Origin: Gloeocapsopsis sp. IPPAS B-1203
GTDB taxonomy: Bacteria > Cyanobacteriota > Cyanobacteriia > Cyanobacteriales > Chroococcidiopsidaceae
Direction: 5' to 3'
DNA: 64,000 nucleotides
Assembly: GCF_002749975.1 (NCBI RefSeq)
Contig: NZ_PEIG01000005.1
Coordinates: forward strand, 1 to 64,000
Part shown: positions 8,899-36,866 of the stretch, one piece after another
Layout: each line of letters starts with the position of its first letter
Numbering within the stretch: the stretch's first letter is position 1
Program-made: the position numbers and the translations under genes
The notes under the pieces: model-generated
Seen by the model: the letters and a program-made list of their open reading frames with translations, nothing else
The model's database searches: none
Told to the model about the DNA's origin: nothing

Positions 8899-8939
8899 CA
8901 AAATTTAATTAGCCTCTAAGTGTGAGGACAGCAAAATCA

Positions 8940-9710
8940 ATGAATCCCTCTTCTGTAGCTGAAAGTCGCCAACATAAATATTTTTCCAATTTGATGAAGC
9001 CGTTACGCGGAGTATTTGTAACAACTAGCGTATTATGTTTAGCATTCGCCGCTCCTGTTATGGCACAACAACCGCAAGTTCCAATTTCTATGCGTACTAT
9101 TACTGTAAGCGGTCGCGGTACGGAGTCAATTCCCACAACATTGACTTTAGTGCGTTTAGGAGTTGAAGTCCAAGGCAAAACTGCCGCTGAAGTTCAACAA
9201 GAGGCTGCCCGACGCTCATCAGCAGTTGTTGCTTTACTGAAAACACGTAATGTAGAAAGACTCGAAACTACTGGTATCACACTTAACCCAGTCTATAGCT
9301 ATACTGATAATACACAGCGGTTGACTGGATATTCGGCAACAAATATTGTCAGTTTTCGGATTGCGACTGAAAGAATAGGAAATTTATTAGATGAAGCAGT
9401 AAAAGCTGGGGCAACAAGAATTGATAGTGTGAGTTTTATTGCGACAGATAGCGCGATCGCCCAAGCCCAACAGCAAGCTTTACGCGAAGCAACGCAAGAT
9501 GCCCAACAACAAGCTAATGCTGTATTAAATGTCTTGAATCTCTCACCTAGTGAAGTCGTTAGTATCCAAATTAATAATGCTGGTACGACTCCGCCGCCAC
9601 CTATTCCTTTAGCGCGTCAAGCAGCTGTAGCAGATAGCGTTGAGACTACACCAGTTGTGGGTGGCGAACAGCAAGTTGAAGCGACAGTAACGTTGCAAAT
9701 TCGGTACTAG
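8940..9710 (+). CDS. Secreted SIMPL (DUF541) domain protein
   Basis: 256 residues from ATG 8940, which has GAGGA 11 bases upstream; a GTG at 8922 lies in frame without a ribosome site. An internal Met at 8994 would give a classic 24-residue signal peptide with cleavage after PVMA. The mature part begins RTITVSGRGTESIPTTLTLVRLGVE, the start of the SIMPL/YggE fold, and includes a Gln/Ala-rich helix (residues about 175-205). Family members are periplasmic or outer-membrane associated and linked to oxidative stress in E. coli, but the biochemical role is not established. No operon partner. Confidence 0.9.
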   Translation: MNPSSVAESRQHKYFSNLMKPLRGVFVTTSVLCLAFAAPVMAQQPQVPISMRTITVSGRGTESIPTTLTLVRLGVEVQGKTAAEVQQEAARRSSAVVALLKTRNVERLETTGITLNPVYSYTDNTQRLTGYSATNIVSFRIATERIGNLLDEAVKAGATRIDSVSFIATDSAIAQAQQQALREATQDAQQQANAVLNVLNLSPSEVVSIQINNAGTTPPPPIPLARQAAVADSVETTPVVGGEQQVEATVTLQIRY

Positions 9711-9724
9711 AAAGAACGCCCTTC

Positions 9725-9835
9725 GACTGAAGTCGGGGCTACAGAAACAAAGTGTGCCTCCGCACACTAAGATAAAAACTTTATTAGCGAGTCCACGAAG
9801 GTGGACTTTGTTTGTCTAGTAGCGAATTTATTCGC
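9725..9835 (+). repeat. Dispersed two-hairpin repeat, copy 1
   Basis: Contains AGTGTGC-CTCC-GCACACT and AGTCCAC-GAAG-GTGGACT hairpins, flanked by GACTGAAGTC on the left and GCGAATTTATTCGC on the right. An inverted copy lies at 35858-35971. It occupies the gap between the SIMPL gene and ssb. Confidence 0.75.
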
Positions 9836-9866
9836 ACTCGCATTCTTGCAAATGTCACATTTTCTA

Positions 9867-10226
9867 CTAAAAATTGTCATCGCCACTCGAAAAATTGGAG
9901 TTGGTATCTTGTTTGGAACCCAACAAATCTAATTTATCTACCAGGATAATGGGTGACGTGCGCGTTGCGCCTGTGTTGCGATCGCTCCAAGTATCAAACT
10001 TTAAAGATCCTTTGACTCCGATTAAACTTCCTTTGTGGACATAATTACCCGCAATTTCTGCTGTTTTGCCCCACAACTCCAGCGTAAACCAATCAGGTTC
10101 ATCACTGTTACGTGACTGACGTCTCACCGCCAACGTCAACCGACACTTGACACTGCCAGATTCAAAATACTTGATATCTGGTTCGCCACCAACACGACCT
10201 ACTAAAGTTACAACATTAAGACTCAT
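9867..10226 (-). CDS. ssb: Single-stranded DNA-binding protein
   Basis: 119 residues with one OB fold: MSLNVVTLVGRVGGEPDIKYFESG at the start, WFTLELWGKTAEIAGNYVHKG in the middle, and a short acidic tail ending SGDDNF. The DDxF end matches the partner-binding tip of bacterial SSB, though the disordered linker is very short, as in other cyanobacterial SSBs. It coats single-stranded DNA in replication, repair and recombination. The start ATG is 11 bases from a perfect LexA-type palindrome (10237-10250) that sits just after a TATAAT on the same strand. Confidence 0.95.
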   Translation of the reverse strand: MSLNVVTLVGRVGGEPDIKYFESGSVKCRLTLAVRRQSRNSDEPDWFTLELWGKTAEIAGNYVHKGSLIGVKGSLKFDTWSDRNTGATRTSPIILVDKLDLLGSKQDTNSNFSSGDDNF

Positions 10227-18047: not shown

Positions 18048-19277
18048 TCAATTCATGATTTCTGTCACTTCGACTTTAACTTGACCTTCACTCAACTGAA
18101 TTGATAGTTTTTGTCCTATTGTTAAGTCACTAGCACTACGCGCGATCGCTCCCTGCTCTTGTCTAACTACAGCGTAACCTCGCTTTAGCACTGCTTTAGG
18201 ATCGAGACTCGCTAACTTCTGCTCTAAAAACTGGCAGCGTAAAGTTGCTTGCTGTAACTGCTGCTTTGTTCTGGTGACAAGTTGATGACGCTGCGATGCT
18301 AATAACTGTCTTTCTTGGGGAATTTTTTGATCTAAACGTAAACGTCGCAAACGAATTTTAAATTCCTGTAACTGATTTTCTGTGTTCTTTAGCTGCTGAT
18401 ACATGACTGCATGCAAAGTTGTTACTCTTTGCTGATGTTCAAAATAAAGTTCTTGTAATTCAGGGACAACCTGTACTGCTGCTGCTGTGGGAGTATGGAC
18501 GCAAACATCGGCAACTAAGTCAGCTAAAGATTCATCGCGTTGATGACCAATACCCGTAATCACGGGAATCGAGCATTGGGCGATCGCTCTCACTACGCGT
18601 TCATCATTAAAGCAAGCTAATTCTTCAACCGCACCACCACCCCGCGCCAAAATTAAGACTTCTGCTCTACCATCTTGTTCCACTCGTGCAATTGCCTTTG
18701 CGATTGAGCTTGGTGCTTGCTCACCTTGAACTAAAGCTGAAGAGAACAATATGCGCACTCCTGGATAACGACTGCGGAGTGTTTTTTGAATATCACCCCA
18801 TGCAGCACCCGCAGGAGAAGAGACAACTGCAATTGTCTGAGGATGGATCGGGAGCGATCGCTTGCGTTCAACGGCAAATAACCCTTCGGCTTCTAAGCGG
18901 TTACGTAGCTGGCGATAACGTAATGCTTGTAAGCCATCGCCTGCTGGCAAAGCTTGCCATACAGTTAACTGATACTGTCCTCTTTGAGGATATAGCCGTA
19001 AACTTCCCAAAACAATTAACTGTTCTCCGCGTTGAGGTATTTGTGTCAGTTTTTCTATTTGACTGTGCCACACCACACAGTTGATCGCGGCTTTGCCTTC
19101 GGTATCTTGTAGTGTAAAAAACAGCCCCTTAGAGTGCCCATTAGTGCTAGAAACTTCACCAATGACCCAAATGTGGTGTAACTGGGCATTTTCCTCTAAC
19201 AGCGCCTGAATGTAAGCGGTTAACCCAGCTACAGAAATTGCAGTATCCGTCACTAAATCTGCTTGATAAAAAGTCAT
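18048..19277 (-). CDS. xseA: Exodeoxyribonuclease VII large subunit
   Basis: 409 residues. An N-terminal OB fold (SVAGLTAYIQALLEENAQL, VIGEVSSTNGHSKGLFFTL) is followed by the nuclease domain with IAVVSSPAGAAWGDI, LILARGGGAVEEL, VITGIGHQRDESLAD and the HTPTAAA motif, a long coiled coil (about residues 265-350), and the C-terminal PKAVLKRGYAVV domain. Catalytic Asp, Arg and His residues of the family are present. With XseB it trims single-stranded DNA in repair. It lies divergent from recA. Confidence 0.95.
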   Translation of the reverse strand: MTFYQADLVTDTAISVAGLTAYIQALLEENAQLHHIWVIGEVSSTNGHSKGLFFTLQDTEGKAAINCVVWHSQIEKLTQIPQRGEQLIVLGSLRLYPQRGQYQLTVWQALPAGDGLQALRYRQLRNRLEAEGLFAVERKRSLPIHPQTIAVVSSPAGAAWGDIQKTLRSRYPGVRILFSSALVQGEQAPSSIAKAIARVEQDGRAEVLILARGGGAVEELACFNDERVVRAIAQCSIPVITGIGHQRDESLADLVADVCVHTPTAAAVQVVPELQELYFEHQQRVTTLHAVMYQQLKNTENQLQEFKIRLRRLRLDQKIPQERQLLASQRHQLVTRTKQQLQQATLRCQFLEQKLASLDPKAVLKRGYAVVRQEQGAIARSASDLTIGQKLSIQLSEGQVKVEVTEIMN

Positions 19278-31120: not shown

Positions 31121-32521
31121 TTAAGACTCAGTATTTAGCGGTAAAGTAACAGTAAAAGTTGTGCCTTGATGTAAGAGACTTTCTACTTGAATTTGACCGT
31201 GGTGATTCTCGGCGATCGCGTTGGCGATCGCTAAACCAAGACCTGAACCTGTGGGAATAGCAACCGGAGTTGTTGCAGTATGAGTGCGCGCAGGGTCTAC
31301 GCGATAAAAACGATCAAACAATCGTGGTAAGGCTGTTTCAGGAATACCAATACCTGTATCACTCACCTTAACTTGCAGCAAAGCTATACGAGTCGCCAGC
31401 GGTGAAGCGATTCTCGTCAACTCAACATTGACTTTACCACCGTGTGGTGTGTAATGTACTGCGTTAACGATTAAGTTGGTAAACAAACGCACGAGTTGAT
31501 TCCAATCACCTTGAAGTGTAAACCAATCCTCAATCAGTTGCGGGTTATGCGATTCAGGCGCTTCAATTAAATGTAGCGACAGCGTAATATTCTTTTCAGT
31601 TGCGGGTAGTTGTTGTTCTTCCACCACTTCCATCAGCAAAGCATCCAAAGGACACGCAGCAAAACAGGGCTTCACAATGCCGCTATCTTGGCGTGCGAGA
31701 AAGAGTAGATCGTCTACTAAACGACCTAATCGTTGAGTCAGCCTTTCAATGACGGTTAACTGTTGGTAGTATTTAGCACCAGCACCTGAAGCTTCTAAAA
31801 GTTCAGGATCAGTCAGTGCTACTTGGACATTAGTTTGAATGAGGGCAATTGGACTTCTCAGTTCGTGGGAAGCATCAGCAGTGAATTGTTTGAGGCGTTG
31901 ATAAGATTCGCGTACGGGTTCCATTGCTTTTCCCGAAAGAAACCAACCACAAAAGGCAACAGAAAGCACCATTAACCCTGTGCCAAGACTTAAGTCAAAA
32001 ATTAATTGGCGGATTGGTTTTGTGACTTCAAACCACGGATGGCTAACGCGCAAATACCCTAACACTTGTCGTCCAACTTCAACTCTTTCGGTCACTTGTC
32101 GCAGTAAGAGTGGAGTGTAATCTTCCTGTCCTGCGACTGCATCTTGATCTCGAATAACCTTGACAGTTTCACCAGTGCGATTTGGATGAACTAGAAGACC
32201 TAATGGTTCAGATAAAGTTGACCATAGAAGTTCGCCGGTGGGGCTAAACCACTCCAAATCAATATGGTCGTCCTCGACAGCATCTGCATTATCTCGAAAA
32301 GTCGCTTCGATGTTGATGCGAAATTGGTCAGCATTCGTTGTGGTAGATTCAATCACAAGCGATCGCTCGACAACCTCGACAACGTGATTGAGAGTATCGT
32401 CAATTCGCTCGATTAATGTACTGCGAACATACAAATAAACTCCACTAGCAAACACTAATAGTAGTACAGCCGTAACTGCTGTATACCACAAAGCCAAACG
32501 GCGACGAGTAGCTTGAAACAT
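31121..32521 (-). CDS. Sensor histidine kinase
   Basis: 466 residues. Two membrane segments (about 12-32 and 177-196) bracket a periplasmic sensor of roughly 145 residues. A short HAMP-like stretch leads to the phosphorylated His219 in DASHELRSPIALI, the N box (FTNLIVNAVHYTP), the G1 box SDTGIGIPE and the G2 box GSGLGLAIANAIAE. It is a complete EnvZ/OmpR-class kinase, but no response regulator lies next to it in this window. Signal unknown. Confidence 0.95.
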   Translation of the reverse strand: MFQATRRRLALWYTAVTAVLLLVFASGVYLYVRSTLIERIDDTLNHVVEVVERSLVIESTTTNADQFRINIEATFRDNADAVEDDHIDLEWFSPTGELLWSTLSEPLGLLVHPNRTGETVKVIRDQDAVAGQEDYTPLLLRQVTERVEVGRQVLGYLRVSHPWFEVTKPIRQLIFDLSLGTGLMVLSVAFCGWFLSGKAMEPVRESYQRLKQFTADASHELRSPIALIQTNVQVALTDPELLEASGAGAKYYQQLTVIERLTQRLGRLVDDLLFLARQDSGIVKPCFAACPLDALLMEVVEEQQLPATEKNITLSLHLIEAPESHNPQLIEDWFTLQGDWNQLVRLFTNLIVNAVHYTPHGGKVNVELTRIASPLATRIALLQVKVSDTGIGIPETALPRLFDRFYRVDPARTHTATTPVAIPTGSGLGLAIANAIAENHHGQIQVESLLHQGTTFTVTLPLNTES

Positions 32522-34967: not shown

Positions 34968-35708
34968 ATGTCTGAGGCAGCACTGTTAGATTCTGTACTC
35001 GGTTTGCCAGTTCATCTCATGGATGACTATACTAGTTGGTTGCGATCGCGCCTCAAACAAGAAATTGGCACTCATGTGATCACGCTAAATGCAGAAATGA
35101 CGATGCAAGCAGAGCAGCATAATGCTTTAGCTCAAGCAATTCGACAAGCCGAGTTAGTTATTCCTGATGGTGCTGGAATTGTCTTATATATGTTACTTCG
35201 TGGCAAACGCATCCAGCGGTGTCCAGGCATTGAGCTTGCAGAGCTACTGTTAGATAGTATCGGACAAACACCAACGTCTTATCCGGTGTTTTTCTATGGA
35301 GGTTCTCCAGGAGTAGCTGTCCAAGCCGCAGAAAATTGGCAACAGCGATCGCCACATCTGCAGATAGTTGGTACAGAGCATGGCTATTTATCAGCAACTG
35401 AAGTTGAAAAATTAAAGCAAACGTTGCAGGAAATTCAACCCAAACTGATTTTGGTAGGGCTTGGAGTGCCGCGTCAAGAATTATGGATTGCCCAAAATCG
35501 TCATTTATGTCCTCAAGCAACTTGGATTGGTGTGGGAGGTAGCTTTGACATTTGGGCGGGGGTGAAGTCTAGAGCGCCAGCTTGGTTAGGAAATAATCAT
35601 TTGGAGTGGCTGTATCGCTTGTATCAGGAACCTTGGCGTTGGCGGCGGATGTCGGCTTTGCCTAAGTTTGCTGGCAAGGCTTTAGTTAGCCGATTAACAC
35701 AGGTTTAG
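34968..35708 (+). CDS. WecB/TagA/CpsF-family glycosyltransferase
   Basis: 246 residues forming the GT26 fold: VITLNAEMTMQAEQHNAL, VIPDGAGIVLYMLLRGKR, RCPGIELAELL, VGLGVPRQELWIAQN and GVGGSFDIWAGVKSRAP. These enzymes transfer a sugar or N-acetylmannosamine to a lipid-linked acceptor in wall-polymer or exopolysaccharide synthesis. The acceptor here is unknown. GAGGAATG precedes the ATG. Confidence 0.92.
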   Translation: MSEAALLDSVLGLPVHLMDDYTSWLRSRLKQEIGTHVITLNAEMTMQAEQHNALAQAIRQAELVIPDGAGIVLYMLLRGKRIQRCPGIELAELLLDSIGQTPTSYPVFFYGGSPGVAVQAAENWQQRSPHLQIVGTEHGYLSATEVEKLKQTLQEIQPKLILVGLGVPRQELWIAQNRHLCPQATWIGVGGSFDIWAGVKSRAPAWLGNNHLEWLYRLYQEPWRWRRMSALPKFAGKALVSRLTQV

Positions 35709-35857
35709 TATTGCACGCTCTCAAGTGAGTAGTAATAAACTATCATCTTCAGTTGAATAATCAGGCTGTGCTTGAGTTGCTAGTTACTAGTGACTGGACG
35801 CTAATCGCAATAACATCAAGTTTGGTTGATTCGTGGACATCCTGCGTAAATGCGCTA

Positions 35858-35971
35858 GCGAATGAATTTGCTATTTCTTGATAAGCAAAGTCCACCTCTG
35901 TGGACTTAATGCTAAAAGGTAGTTTTGAGTGTACGAAGGTACACTTTGCTTGGATAGCCTCAACTTCAGTC
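35858..35971 (-). repeat. Dispersed two-hairpin repeat, copy 2 (inverted)
   Basis: The reverse complement matches 9725-9835 along about 110 bases: AGTGTAC-CTTC-GTACACT and AGTCCAC-AGAG-GTGGACT hairpins with the same flanks. It lies between the glycosyltransferase and the PhyH gene. Confidence 0.75.
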
Positions 35972-35999
35972 GTAGGCTATCTGTGATTCATGCTCACTA

Positions 36000-36866
36000 C
36001 TAACCGCTAACAACCTCCACACTTTTTTGTAATGCACTTCTACCAAAAGAAAAACGCTGACCCTGATAGTCTTTTGCAGGGATGACATAGCAAACTAAGG
36101 CATATCTTTTACCCTTGTCTTGCTGATGCCATCCTTTATGTACTAACTGTTGATTGGATATAACCATCGTTCCTGCTTTACCAAACAGCGGAACAGCTTG
36201 TTTATCGTTATATAAAAGTTGAATATCTTCTTTATAATTGCGGCTATTTTTGGATGCATATAGTACTTGCTTGAGCCAACCATAGCAATAATTAATGAGT
36301 CTTCTGTAGGTATGGCGATGAGAGCCAGGAATCACAGTGTATGGTCCATCGCCATATTCGTTAACATCAGTGAGATAAATAAAGACTTTGTAAACTGTCT
36401 TAGTTACGCAATCAGTATGATAGCCCCGCTTTGAGATGGTATCGGGATTGTCAATCTTGATTGAGATATTTCGCAGCAAAACAGGTTCGCCAATGCGCGC
36501 TTCAAAGATATCTTCAATGACGTGTGAACTGAACAGTTGTGCAAGTTTATCGTCAATTTCTTGAGCATTCATGATCTGTTGAACGTCCAAATCTACATCA
36601 TGAATATCTTTGCGACAAAGTAAATAGCAGTCTCCAGCAATAAGATAGCTGTGATTATTGATATAAGAATCTGCAACCTTGATTAAGCGATCGCACTCTT
36701 GTTTATCCAAAAACTCAGGAATAACTTCATAGCCTTGCTGGGTGAAATGATTCTGTGGTTGACATATATACTCTTGACGATCATTAATCATTCCAGTTAT
36801 CTCTGGCTGAATGACCGACAATTCTCGCTGAAGACGTTGACTAAACTTCTTAAGGCGTCTGAGCAT
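36000..36866 (-). CDS. Phytanoyl-CoA dioxygenase-family (PhyH) protein
   Basis: 288 residues with the PhyH double-stranded beta helix. The Fe(II) site is HxD in KRGYHTDCVTKT plus the distal His in QQLVHKGWHQ; an Arg in KGKRYALVCYV would hold 2-oxoglutarate. The PGSHRHTYRRL segment is typical. It hydroxylates an unknown substrate. It stands alone after a 961-bp gap. Confidence 0.88.
   Translation of the reverse strand: MLRRLKKFSQRLQRELSVIQPEITGMINDRQEYICQPQNHFTQQGYEVIPEFLDKQECDRLIKVADSYINNHSYLIAGDCYLLCRKDIHDVDLDVQQIMNAQEIDDKLAQLFSSHVIEDIFEARIGEPVLLRNISIKIDNPDTISKRGYHTDCVTKTVYKVFIYLTDVNEYGDGPYTVIPGSHRHTYRRLINYCYGWLKQVLYASKNSRNYKEDIQLLYNDKQAVPLFGKAGTMVISNQQLVHKGWHQQDKGKRYALVCYVIPAKDYQGQRFSFGRSALQKSVEVVSG

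Follow-up and report, generated by a model that had tools for sequence, protein, structure and literature searches.

The 64-kb window analysed here, a stretch of 64,000 nucleotides from the cyanobacterium Gloeocapsopsis sp. IPPAS B-1203, carries two copies of a hairpin-rich dispersed repeat, each lying between a pair of convergent open reading frames (ORFs): 8922-9710 (+) and 9867-10226 (-) around copy 1, and 34968-35708 (+) and 36000-36866 (-) around copy 2 (Table 1). The initial annotation had aligned positions 9725-9835 with the reverse complement of 35858-35971 over about 110 bases and had described a repeat of two hairpins, the first changing from AGTGTGC/GCACACT to AGTGTAC/GTACACT and the second keeping AGTCCAC/GTGGACT around an altered loop. 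This alignment is real, with 73% identity over about 130 bases, and both arm pairs of the first hairpin (HP2 in our numbering) are present in the window, as is the loop change of the second (HP3; GAAG vs AGAG). The repeat has four hairpins, however, of which HP1 and HP4 had been missed, and complete copies reach further out, to terminal inverted repeats.

The left end of copy 1 is lost, and copy 2 retains remnants of both terminal repeats. Copy 1 occupies the same site in the sister genome G001 (locus L265) and copy 2 in the sister genomes G001 (L264) and G002 (L300); with these orthologous sites occupied, both window copies are old and decayed, and inserted before the sister species split. 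At the copy 1 site in G001 (L265), and likewise at locus L047 of the own genome, a 26-base insert with CTGCGGGAAGCCGCTACGCGTCTAC lies at the end of HP3, which, judged from its sequence, would be a second small dispersed repeat nested inside the MITE.

Table 1. Repeat copies, their parts and other features of the window
Feature	Position	Strand	Basis or remark
Copy 1, old left-truncated MITE	9711-9857	+	Profile and covariance-model core, 9718-9837
HP1 of copy 1, GCCC..CGACT-GA-AGTCG..GGGC	9718-9739	+	Sequence and helix 1 of the 41-copy fold
HP2 of copy 1, AGTGTGC-CTCC-GCACACT	9751-9768	+	First hairpin of the initial annotation; terminator-like on the - strand
HP3 of copy 1, AGTCCAC-GAAG-GTGGACT	9790-9807	+	Second hairpin of the initial annotation; terminator-like on the + strand
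HP4 of copy 1, GCGAAT-TT-ATTCGC	9822-9835	+	Sequence and 41-copy fold
Right terminal inverted repeat remnant of copy 1, ATTCTTGCAAATGTCA (intact, ATTCACGCAGGAGGTCT)	9842-9857	+	By-eye comparison with intact copies
Copy 2, old MITE with remnants of both terminal repeats	35836-35993	-	Sequence, profile matches
HP2 of copy 2, AGTGTAC-CTTC-GTACACT, compensated form	35928-35945	-	Sequence, 41-copy fold
HP3 of copy 2, AGTCCAC-AGAG-GTGGACT	35889-35906	-	Sequence, 41-copy fold
Left terminal-repeat remnant of copy 2, GCATGAATC	35985-35993	-	By eye against intact copies
Right terminal-repeat remnant of copy 2, ATTTACGCAGGATGTC	35836-35851	-	By eye against intact copies
Control hairpin outside the element, GCGATCGC-GTTG-GCGATCGC	31212-31231	.	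Loop reads CAAC in the sister genome G001
Exonuclease VII large subunit gene	18072-18881	-	

Intact copies are about 164 bp long, run from AGACCTCCTGCATGAAT to ATTCACGCAGGAGGTCT and consist of 17-bp terminal inverted repeats enclosing four hairpins and no gene. The terminal-repeat pattern has 78 matches in the own genome, against none for a reversed-pattern control, and both ends were recognised in 19 of the copies fetched from it, 14 of which measure 164-167 bp (range 119-199; L019, 164 bp). Same-end pairs 119-199 bp apart occur at L127, L167, L170 and L171, and the interiors of the last three match the model less well (51-67 bits); these sequences suggest size variants or other MITEs using the same ends.

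The predicted pre-insertion sites of 12 elements were searched in genomes G001, G002 and G010. A match crossing the junction was found in at least one relative for seven (L170, L036, L028, L023, L118, L014 and L044), and all of these except L170 show a clean 3-bp duplication, ATT or AAT, the empty site being uninterrupted target that is three bases shorter than predicted. The clean case for L118 comes from G010, the genome in which L023 is not clean, and one of the two target-duplication copies of L028 has a changed base. The empty site of L019 is interrupted by other sequence, L041 gave only partial matches in these three genomes, and L016, L032 and L035 no usable match. An initial guess of IS630/Tc1 termini with a TA duplication was dropped, as the empty sites show 3 bp; the IS630-type loci that were fetched hold just one site resembling the MITE end, with five mismatches (L052).

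The same or nearly the same ends (0-3 mismatches) flank elements of 948-1,076 bp with transposase similarity in five related genomes: G006 (948 and 949 bp), G002 (949 bp), G014 (962 bp), G013 (1,076 bp) and G004 (951 bp), where the left end has three mismatches. Sequences related to a transposase piece of the G013 element occur in each of the five. The transposase frames within these elements are split, so the three pieces scanned against protein families (one from G013, one from G014 and one from another locus of G006) match NF033581 (IS5 family) at 6.6e-18 to 4.5e-32 with 65-112 bits, under the 140-bit whole-protein cut-off; two C-terminal pieces pass PF13359, and the N-terminal piece passes PF13613. 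In the own genome, the terminal-repeat scan found no IS-length pair of MITE ends around a transposase, and none of its three IS5-like pieces has such a pair: one has an open 159-amino-acid frame, but its locus lacks MITE ends, and each of the other two lies beside a single decayed end. On the basis of these sequences, the MITE was most likely mobilised in trans by a transposase of the IS5 family recognising the same termini.

A mobile non-autonomous element was one of two possibilities raised by the initial annotation, which had also suggested looking for target-site duplications. That possibility is borne out by the terminal inverted repeats, by the 3-bp ATT/AAT duplications seen against empty sites, clean in six elements, and by the IS-sized elements sharing the ends in relatives. 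The ISL2 target rule is ANT, and the repeat resembles the IS5-family (ISL2-like) bacterial MITEs in being short and geneless, in having 17-bp ends common to an apparent IS5-family element and a 3-bp AWT target duplication, and in its many, mostly intergenic copies; it differs from them in a four-hairpin interior that is not recognised in the IS and in having no IS-length partner in the own genome. The repeat is a new family of MITEs, apparently IS5-linked, from a cyanobacterial lineage, and in kind it is unremarkable. A broad literature search returned, among the matches listed, nothing on a Gloeocapsopsis MITE. Nezha, reportedly the cyanobacterial MITE of Zhou in 2008, is by description like the present repeat in being a cyanobacterial MITE. 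Nezha is named as such in the cited portions of two papers (PMC3733652, PMC10969869).

A 161-base DNA query yields at least 46 match rows in the own genome of 5.9 Mb and 57 contigs (best 40 of 159 candidates), with a best non-self E of 6.8e-34, so the repeat far exceeds chance. A covariance model gives at least 150 matches there, including some fragments (the best 150 of 2,287 candidates), and a profile search of the own-genome stretches that were fetched gives 103 separate places, 90 of them near full length. For the two same-genus genomes, 107 and 85 matches were reported, some of which are one place counted twice, once per strand, as the element is almost a palindrome. Matches occur in ten genomes of a sample of 30 (the own genome, two of the same genus, 16 of the same family and 11 of the same order), with at least 28 or 29 in each of three genomes of genus g1 and three of genus g3, and one to three in each of the other four. 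A left-end scan of named genomes matched only Gloeocapsopsis crepidinum LEGE 06123 (three contigs), own-genome records possibly being excluded. The set of 195 copies used below comprises fetched copies only: 103 from the own genome (G000), 46 from G001 and 46 from G002.

Compensatory changes in base pairs are routinely cited as evidence that an RNA structure is functional, and the G-C to A-T swap in HP2 had been taken in the initial annotation to imply selection for the folded form. The swap itself is genuine and marks the split between two large subfamilies: across 41 own-genome copies, the pair is A-T in 22, G-C in 16, G-T in one and unpaired in two. Folding these copies and counting covarying pairs, as had been proposed, gives a divided outcome. 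The share of paired cells (93.9% vs 93.3% shuffled) and the covariation score (0.078 vs 0.065) are reached by none of 500 shuffles, but doubly changed pairs show no excess (2 vs 1.9), and of the 17 cells in which both sides are changed, 16 fall in the one subfamily pair.

For orthologous copies, 45 cross-genome pairs were available, 36 of them matched on both flanks, and 28 independent loci were used; eight second pairs of the same loci and nine one-flank pairs were left out, and among the 28 loci two HP1, four HP2, three HP3 and five HP4 hairpins were unusable. Of their arm pairs, 540 are unchanged, 25 became wobbles, 40 were broken, two were already unpaired, three are fully compensated and one is a double change with a wobble. 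Arm transitions produced 25 wobbles and 18 breaks (p=0.36), and 22 changes are transversions. Single arm changes thus broke pairing more often than they kept it, which is the pattern that the initial annotation had itself named as counting against selection for folding, and its claim that such selection is implied is not supported by this result. When the 195 copies are compared with their consensus, 4,254 pairs hold 414 single changes and 56 double changes, 47 of which are Watson-Crick, against roughly ten double changes expected by chance from the singles by our own rough estimate. The 47 sit at several positions, include TA to AT and AT to CG, and are in many cases common to subfamily members; their excess fits selection as well as template switching. 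Divergence between orthologs is 5.4-6.4% in the arms, a value biased downward because arms were located by similarity to the consensus, against 8.6% in the flanks and 7.3-16% in the linkers. Given the double Watson-Crick excess and the lower arm divergence, some selection on the arms, or repair of arm from arm by template switching, is possible.

The loops are 26.7% diverged between orthologs overall, in a count that gives 6.2% for the arms and 8.0% for the flanks, and those of HP2 (41.5% of bases changed) and HP3 (35.3%) are the most variable parts of the element. At the 28 loci, the loop is the reverse complement of that of its ortholog in 7 of 24 HP2 and 6 of 25 HP3 hairpins, in 1 of 23 for HP4 and in 0 of 26 for HP1. 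Eight of the 13 HP2/HP3 flips are exact and five are one base off, and just two other HP2/HP3 loops at these loci differ at three or more bases. Further flips occur among the pairs left out (HP2 of L225 against L253 and L017; HP3 of L018/L246), and minority-sense loops (purine-rich in HP2, pyrimidine-rich in HP3; not all of them exact flips) make up about one-tenth to one-quarter of the copies per genome, namely, for HP2 and HP3, 16/88 and 17/87 in G000, 9/40 and 8/45 in G001, and 4/35 and 7/40 in G002. In the ortholog pair L117/L257, a loop flip is found together with a compensated pair. The arms of flipped HP2 hairpins are worse than those of unflipped ones (mean mismatches 1.28 vs 0.52, p=0.008) and those of HP3 are alike (0.59 vs 0.78, p=0.28); flipped hairpins have no cleaner arms, so homogenisation of the arms by the same event is unsupported. 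A complex HP2 variant, AGTTGACGAGCGCACACT, recurs at L028 and L042 of the own genome, at L260 of G001 and at L297 of G002. Two of the carrying loci have orthologs of another form, and the variant may reflect either templated mutation or gene conversion.

A control alignment of own sequence against G001 (172,096 columns, 93.6% identity) places these flips in a wider setting. It contains 250 multi-base replacements with six identical bases on each side, of which six are exact reverse complements, three inside the element and three elsewhere, and all six lie between perfect stems of at least 7 bp; among the 243 blocks that lack a 6-bp stem, no exact reverse complement occurs (Fisher p=2e-11). Tetraloops on stems of at least 7 bp are flipped in 3 of 19 cases inside the element and 2 of 9 outside it. 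Outside the element, three-base loops on such stems are flipped in 1 of 26 cases, loops of 5-8 bases in 0 of 47, and tetraloops on 6-bp stems in 0 of 39; one seven-base loop on a 6-bp stem differs from a flip by one base. Outside the element, exact flips number 3 of 82 on stems of at least 7 bp vs 0 of 198 on 6-bp stems (p=0.024). The control hairpin of the window (Table 1) sits inside ORF 31121-32521 (-), a sensor-kinase-like frame, in which its flip, read by eye, changes an amino acid from N to L between the sister species.

The explanation that we favour, to which as a whole we assign a probability of about 70%, is a MITE with IS5-type termini whose hairpins flip by template switching, and whose paired changes are not proof of selection on an RNA. 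When replication leaves the DNA of the element single-stranded or extruded, a template switch of the polymerase across a hairpin could occur, and such a switch would reverse-complement the loop and could copy one arm onto the other. Frequent loop inversions in the strong hairpins HP2 and HP3 would follow, and paired changes of the G-C to A-T type could arise by a template switch in one event or as two ordinary steps; this step, from flips to compensatory change, is one that we infer. Exact reverse-complement loops between perfect stems are the footprint of template switching, a known process, and in the control alignment exact reversed loops are found between unchanged perfect arms, with none away from stems. 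For an intact copy, the DNA fold of lowest energy joins HP2 to HP3 and the two ends to one another instead of forming four separate hairpins.

In the cited portions of the literature, inversions of loops or spacers by template switching are known in rRNA genes (PMC8794818) and in yeast coding genes, there with arms longer than 9 bp (PMC8604942), small inversions are known in plastids (PMC6824564), and, in E. coli, assays quantify related events on each of the two replication strands (PMC7202029). As far as these portions describe them, the inversions in rRNA genes, yeast and plastids (PMC8794818, PMC8604942, PMC6824564) share with those reported here a reverse-complemented loop, unchanged arms and reversibility, whereas here they concern a bacterial dispersed element with 7-bp arms and affect about one-quarter of HP2/HP3 loci at 8% flank divergence. 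A broad literature search on hairpin repeats and loop inversion returned, among the matches listed, nothing on cyanobacterial hairpin loop inversion. Exonuclease I limits such template-switch events in E. coli; the model of its C-terminal domain (PF08411) has no match in the three genomes of the genus, an E. coli control does match, and we regard this absence as a factor in flipping only as a lead. Exonuclease VII, whose large subunit gene lies in the window, is a candidate modifier of hairpin mutagenesis.

Several other explanations bear on the same observations. A structured RNA or mRNA-stabilising element whose base pairing is kept by selection, as the initial annotation proposed, is in our view improbable, even with the strong folding of the sequence (z -7.7 for the DNA of an intact copy and -3.7 for copy 1 as RNA) and the paired share and covariation score above all shuffles of the 41 copies. 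In the 195 copies, single transitions in HP2 are 40 A-C vs 15 G-T, as expected if the RNA were the minus strand, but HP3 has no plus-strand wobble bias (38 G-T vs 49 A-C). Double Watson-Crick types without a possible wobble intermediate, such as TA to AT in HP3, and an arm divergence below that of the linkers would suit selection; against it, breaks between orthologs outnumber both wobbles and full compensations, wobbles are not significantly preferred among transitions, and the HP2 and HP3 loops change fastest of all parts. An Rfam scan of the 64-kb window at gathering level gives only a tRNA, with no family scoring that high within the element. The unusually clear record of loop flips undercuts the inference of selection for RNA folding, and paired changes such as G-C to A-T are not, we infer, enough by themselves to demonstrate that a folded RNA is selected for. 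Gene conversion between paralogous copies, rather than local inversion, would be another source of the flips themselves, which we consider unlikely. Over the adjacent 14+14 bases, 7 of the 13 flips have their ortholog as the closest match (28 and 26 of 28 in L010/L250, for example, vs at most 20 for a paralog), whereas a same-genome paralog with that loop beats it in four (HP3 of L226/L046, L234/L129 and L117/L257; HP2 of L241/L126) and equals it in two (HP2 of L025/L218 and L237/L011), the paralog score being a maximum over many copies and the ortholog score a single value; conversion may account for some of the flips. Recurrence of the odd variant AGTTGACGAGCGCACACT at four loci speaks for conversion, but a C-A arm mismatch in L234/L129 kept its orientation while the loop flipped, and hairpins outside the family flip as well (31212 in the window; L311:6698), so within-family conversion cannot explain those flips.

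The placement of the copies raises the further idea that the element terminates transcription in both directions, having been dispersed by transposition and retained where genes converge. Among 119 classified intergenic copies in three genomes, with gene context taken from simple open frames of at least 90 codons rather than curated genes, convergent ORFs flank 52, compared with 16 of the 98 gaps used as background (p=1.6e-5), and divergent ORFs flank 9, compared with 24 of 98; the count omits copies with flanks under 500 bases, four inside a frame and nine without a frame on one side, and the background gaps come from nine own-genome stretches chosen for holding copies. With orthologs counted once, 42 of 102 copies are convergent. 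Both window copies share this placement, and copy 1 has a terminator-like hairpin on each strand (two found vs 0.3 expected). Loss of insertions hitting promoters or genes explains the placement equally well, however; the 7-base tails are not conserved beyond the flanks (divergence 12.2% and 8.5% vs 8.6%), and young and orthologous copies are not clearly different (6 of 12 vs 7 of 15 classified copies convergent), all of which makes a terminator role doubtful. We consider it very improbable that the element is a REP/REPIN-type palindrome pair moved by a RAYT (REP-associated tyrosine transposase), an identity that was tried and rejected. HP1 and HP4 do resemble short palindromes beside TAG/GTAG in opposite orientation, and, in its cited portion, PMC3733652 reports GTAG repeats in cyanobacteria, some as dimers within long palindromes. 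The GTAG-15 dimers of Anabaena variabilis described there are similar in that a palindromic repeat pair is nested in an outer inverted repeat, their outer palindrome being TATAGGA...TCCTATA vs AGACCTCC...GGAGGTCT here. The same source gives a conserved GTAG tag in more than 90% of members in most REP families, whereas the tag at HP1 is not conserved (20 GTAG, 20 ATAG and 1 CTAG in 41 copies), and no RAYT was seen in a search of the own genome. The sole Y1_Tnp (PF01797) match in that genome is short and lies beside an opposite-strand frame that is TnpB-like by eye, an apparent IS200/IS605 arrangement, and full copies of the element have other termini and a 3-bp target duplication.

For the favoured explanation, a MITE whose hairpins flip by template switching, the flip rate is the interesting part and the element itself is ordinary in kind. 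More than 100 copies in the own genome, together with same-site copies in sister species, make hairpin evolution directly observable, and the repeat family offers a natural assay of template switching in a bacterium without a detected exonuclease I C-terminal domain, as well as a caution for interpreting covariation in bacterial repeats. Tentatively, and with the odds somewhat against so broad a statement, this lineage, and perhaps cyanobacteria generally together with their plastid descendants, may flip strong short-loop hairpins several times faster than per-site substitution. If this is true, MITEs rich in hairpins, and REP-like repeats too, would act as natural, self-spreading reporters of hairpin flipping, and much of the covariation on which claims of RNA function in these repeats are based would be a footprint of replication.
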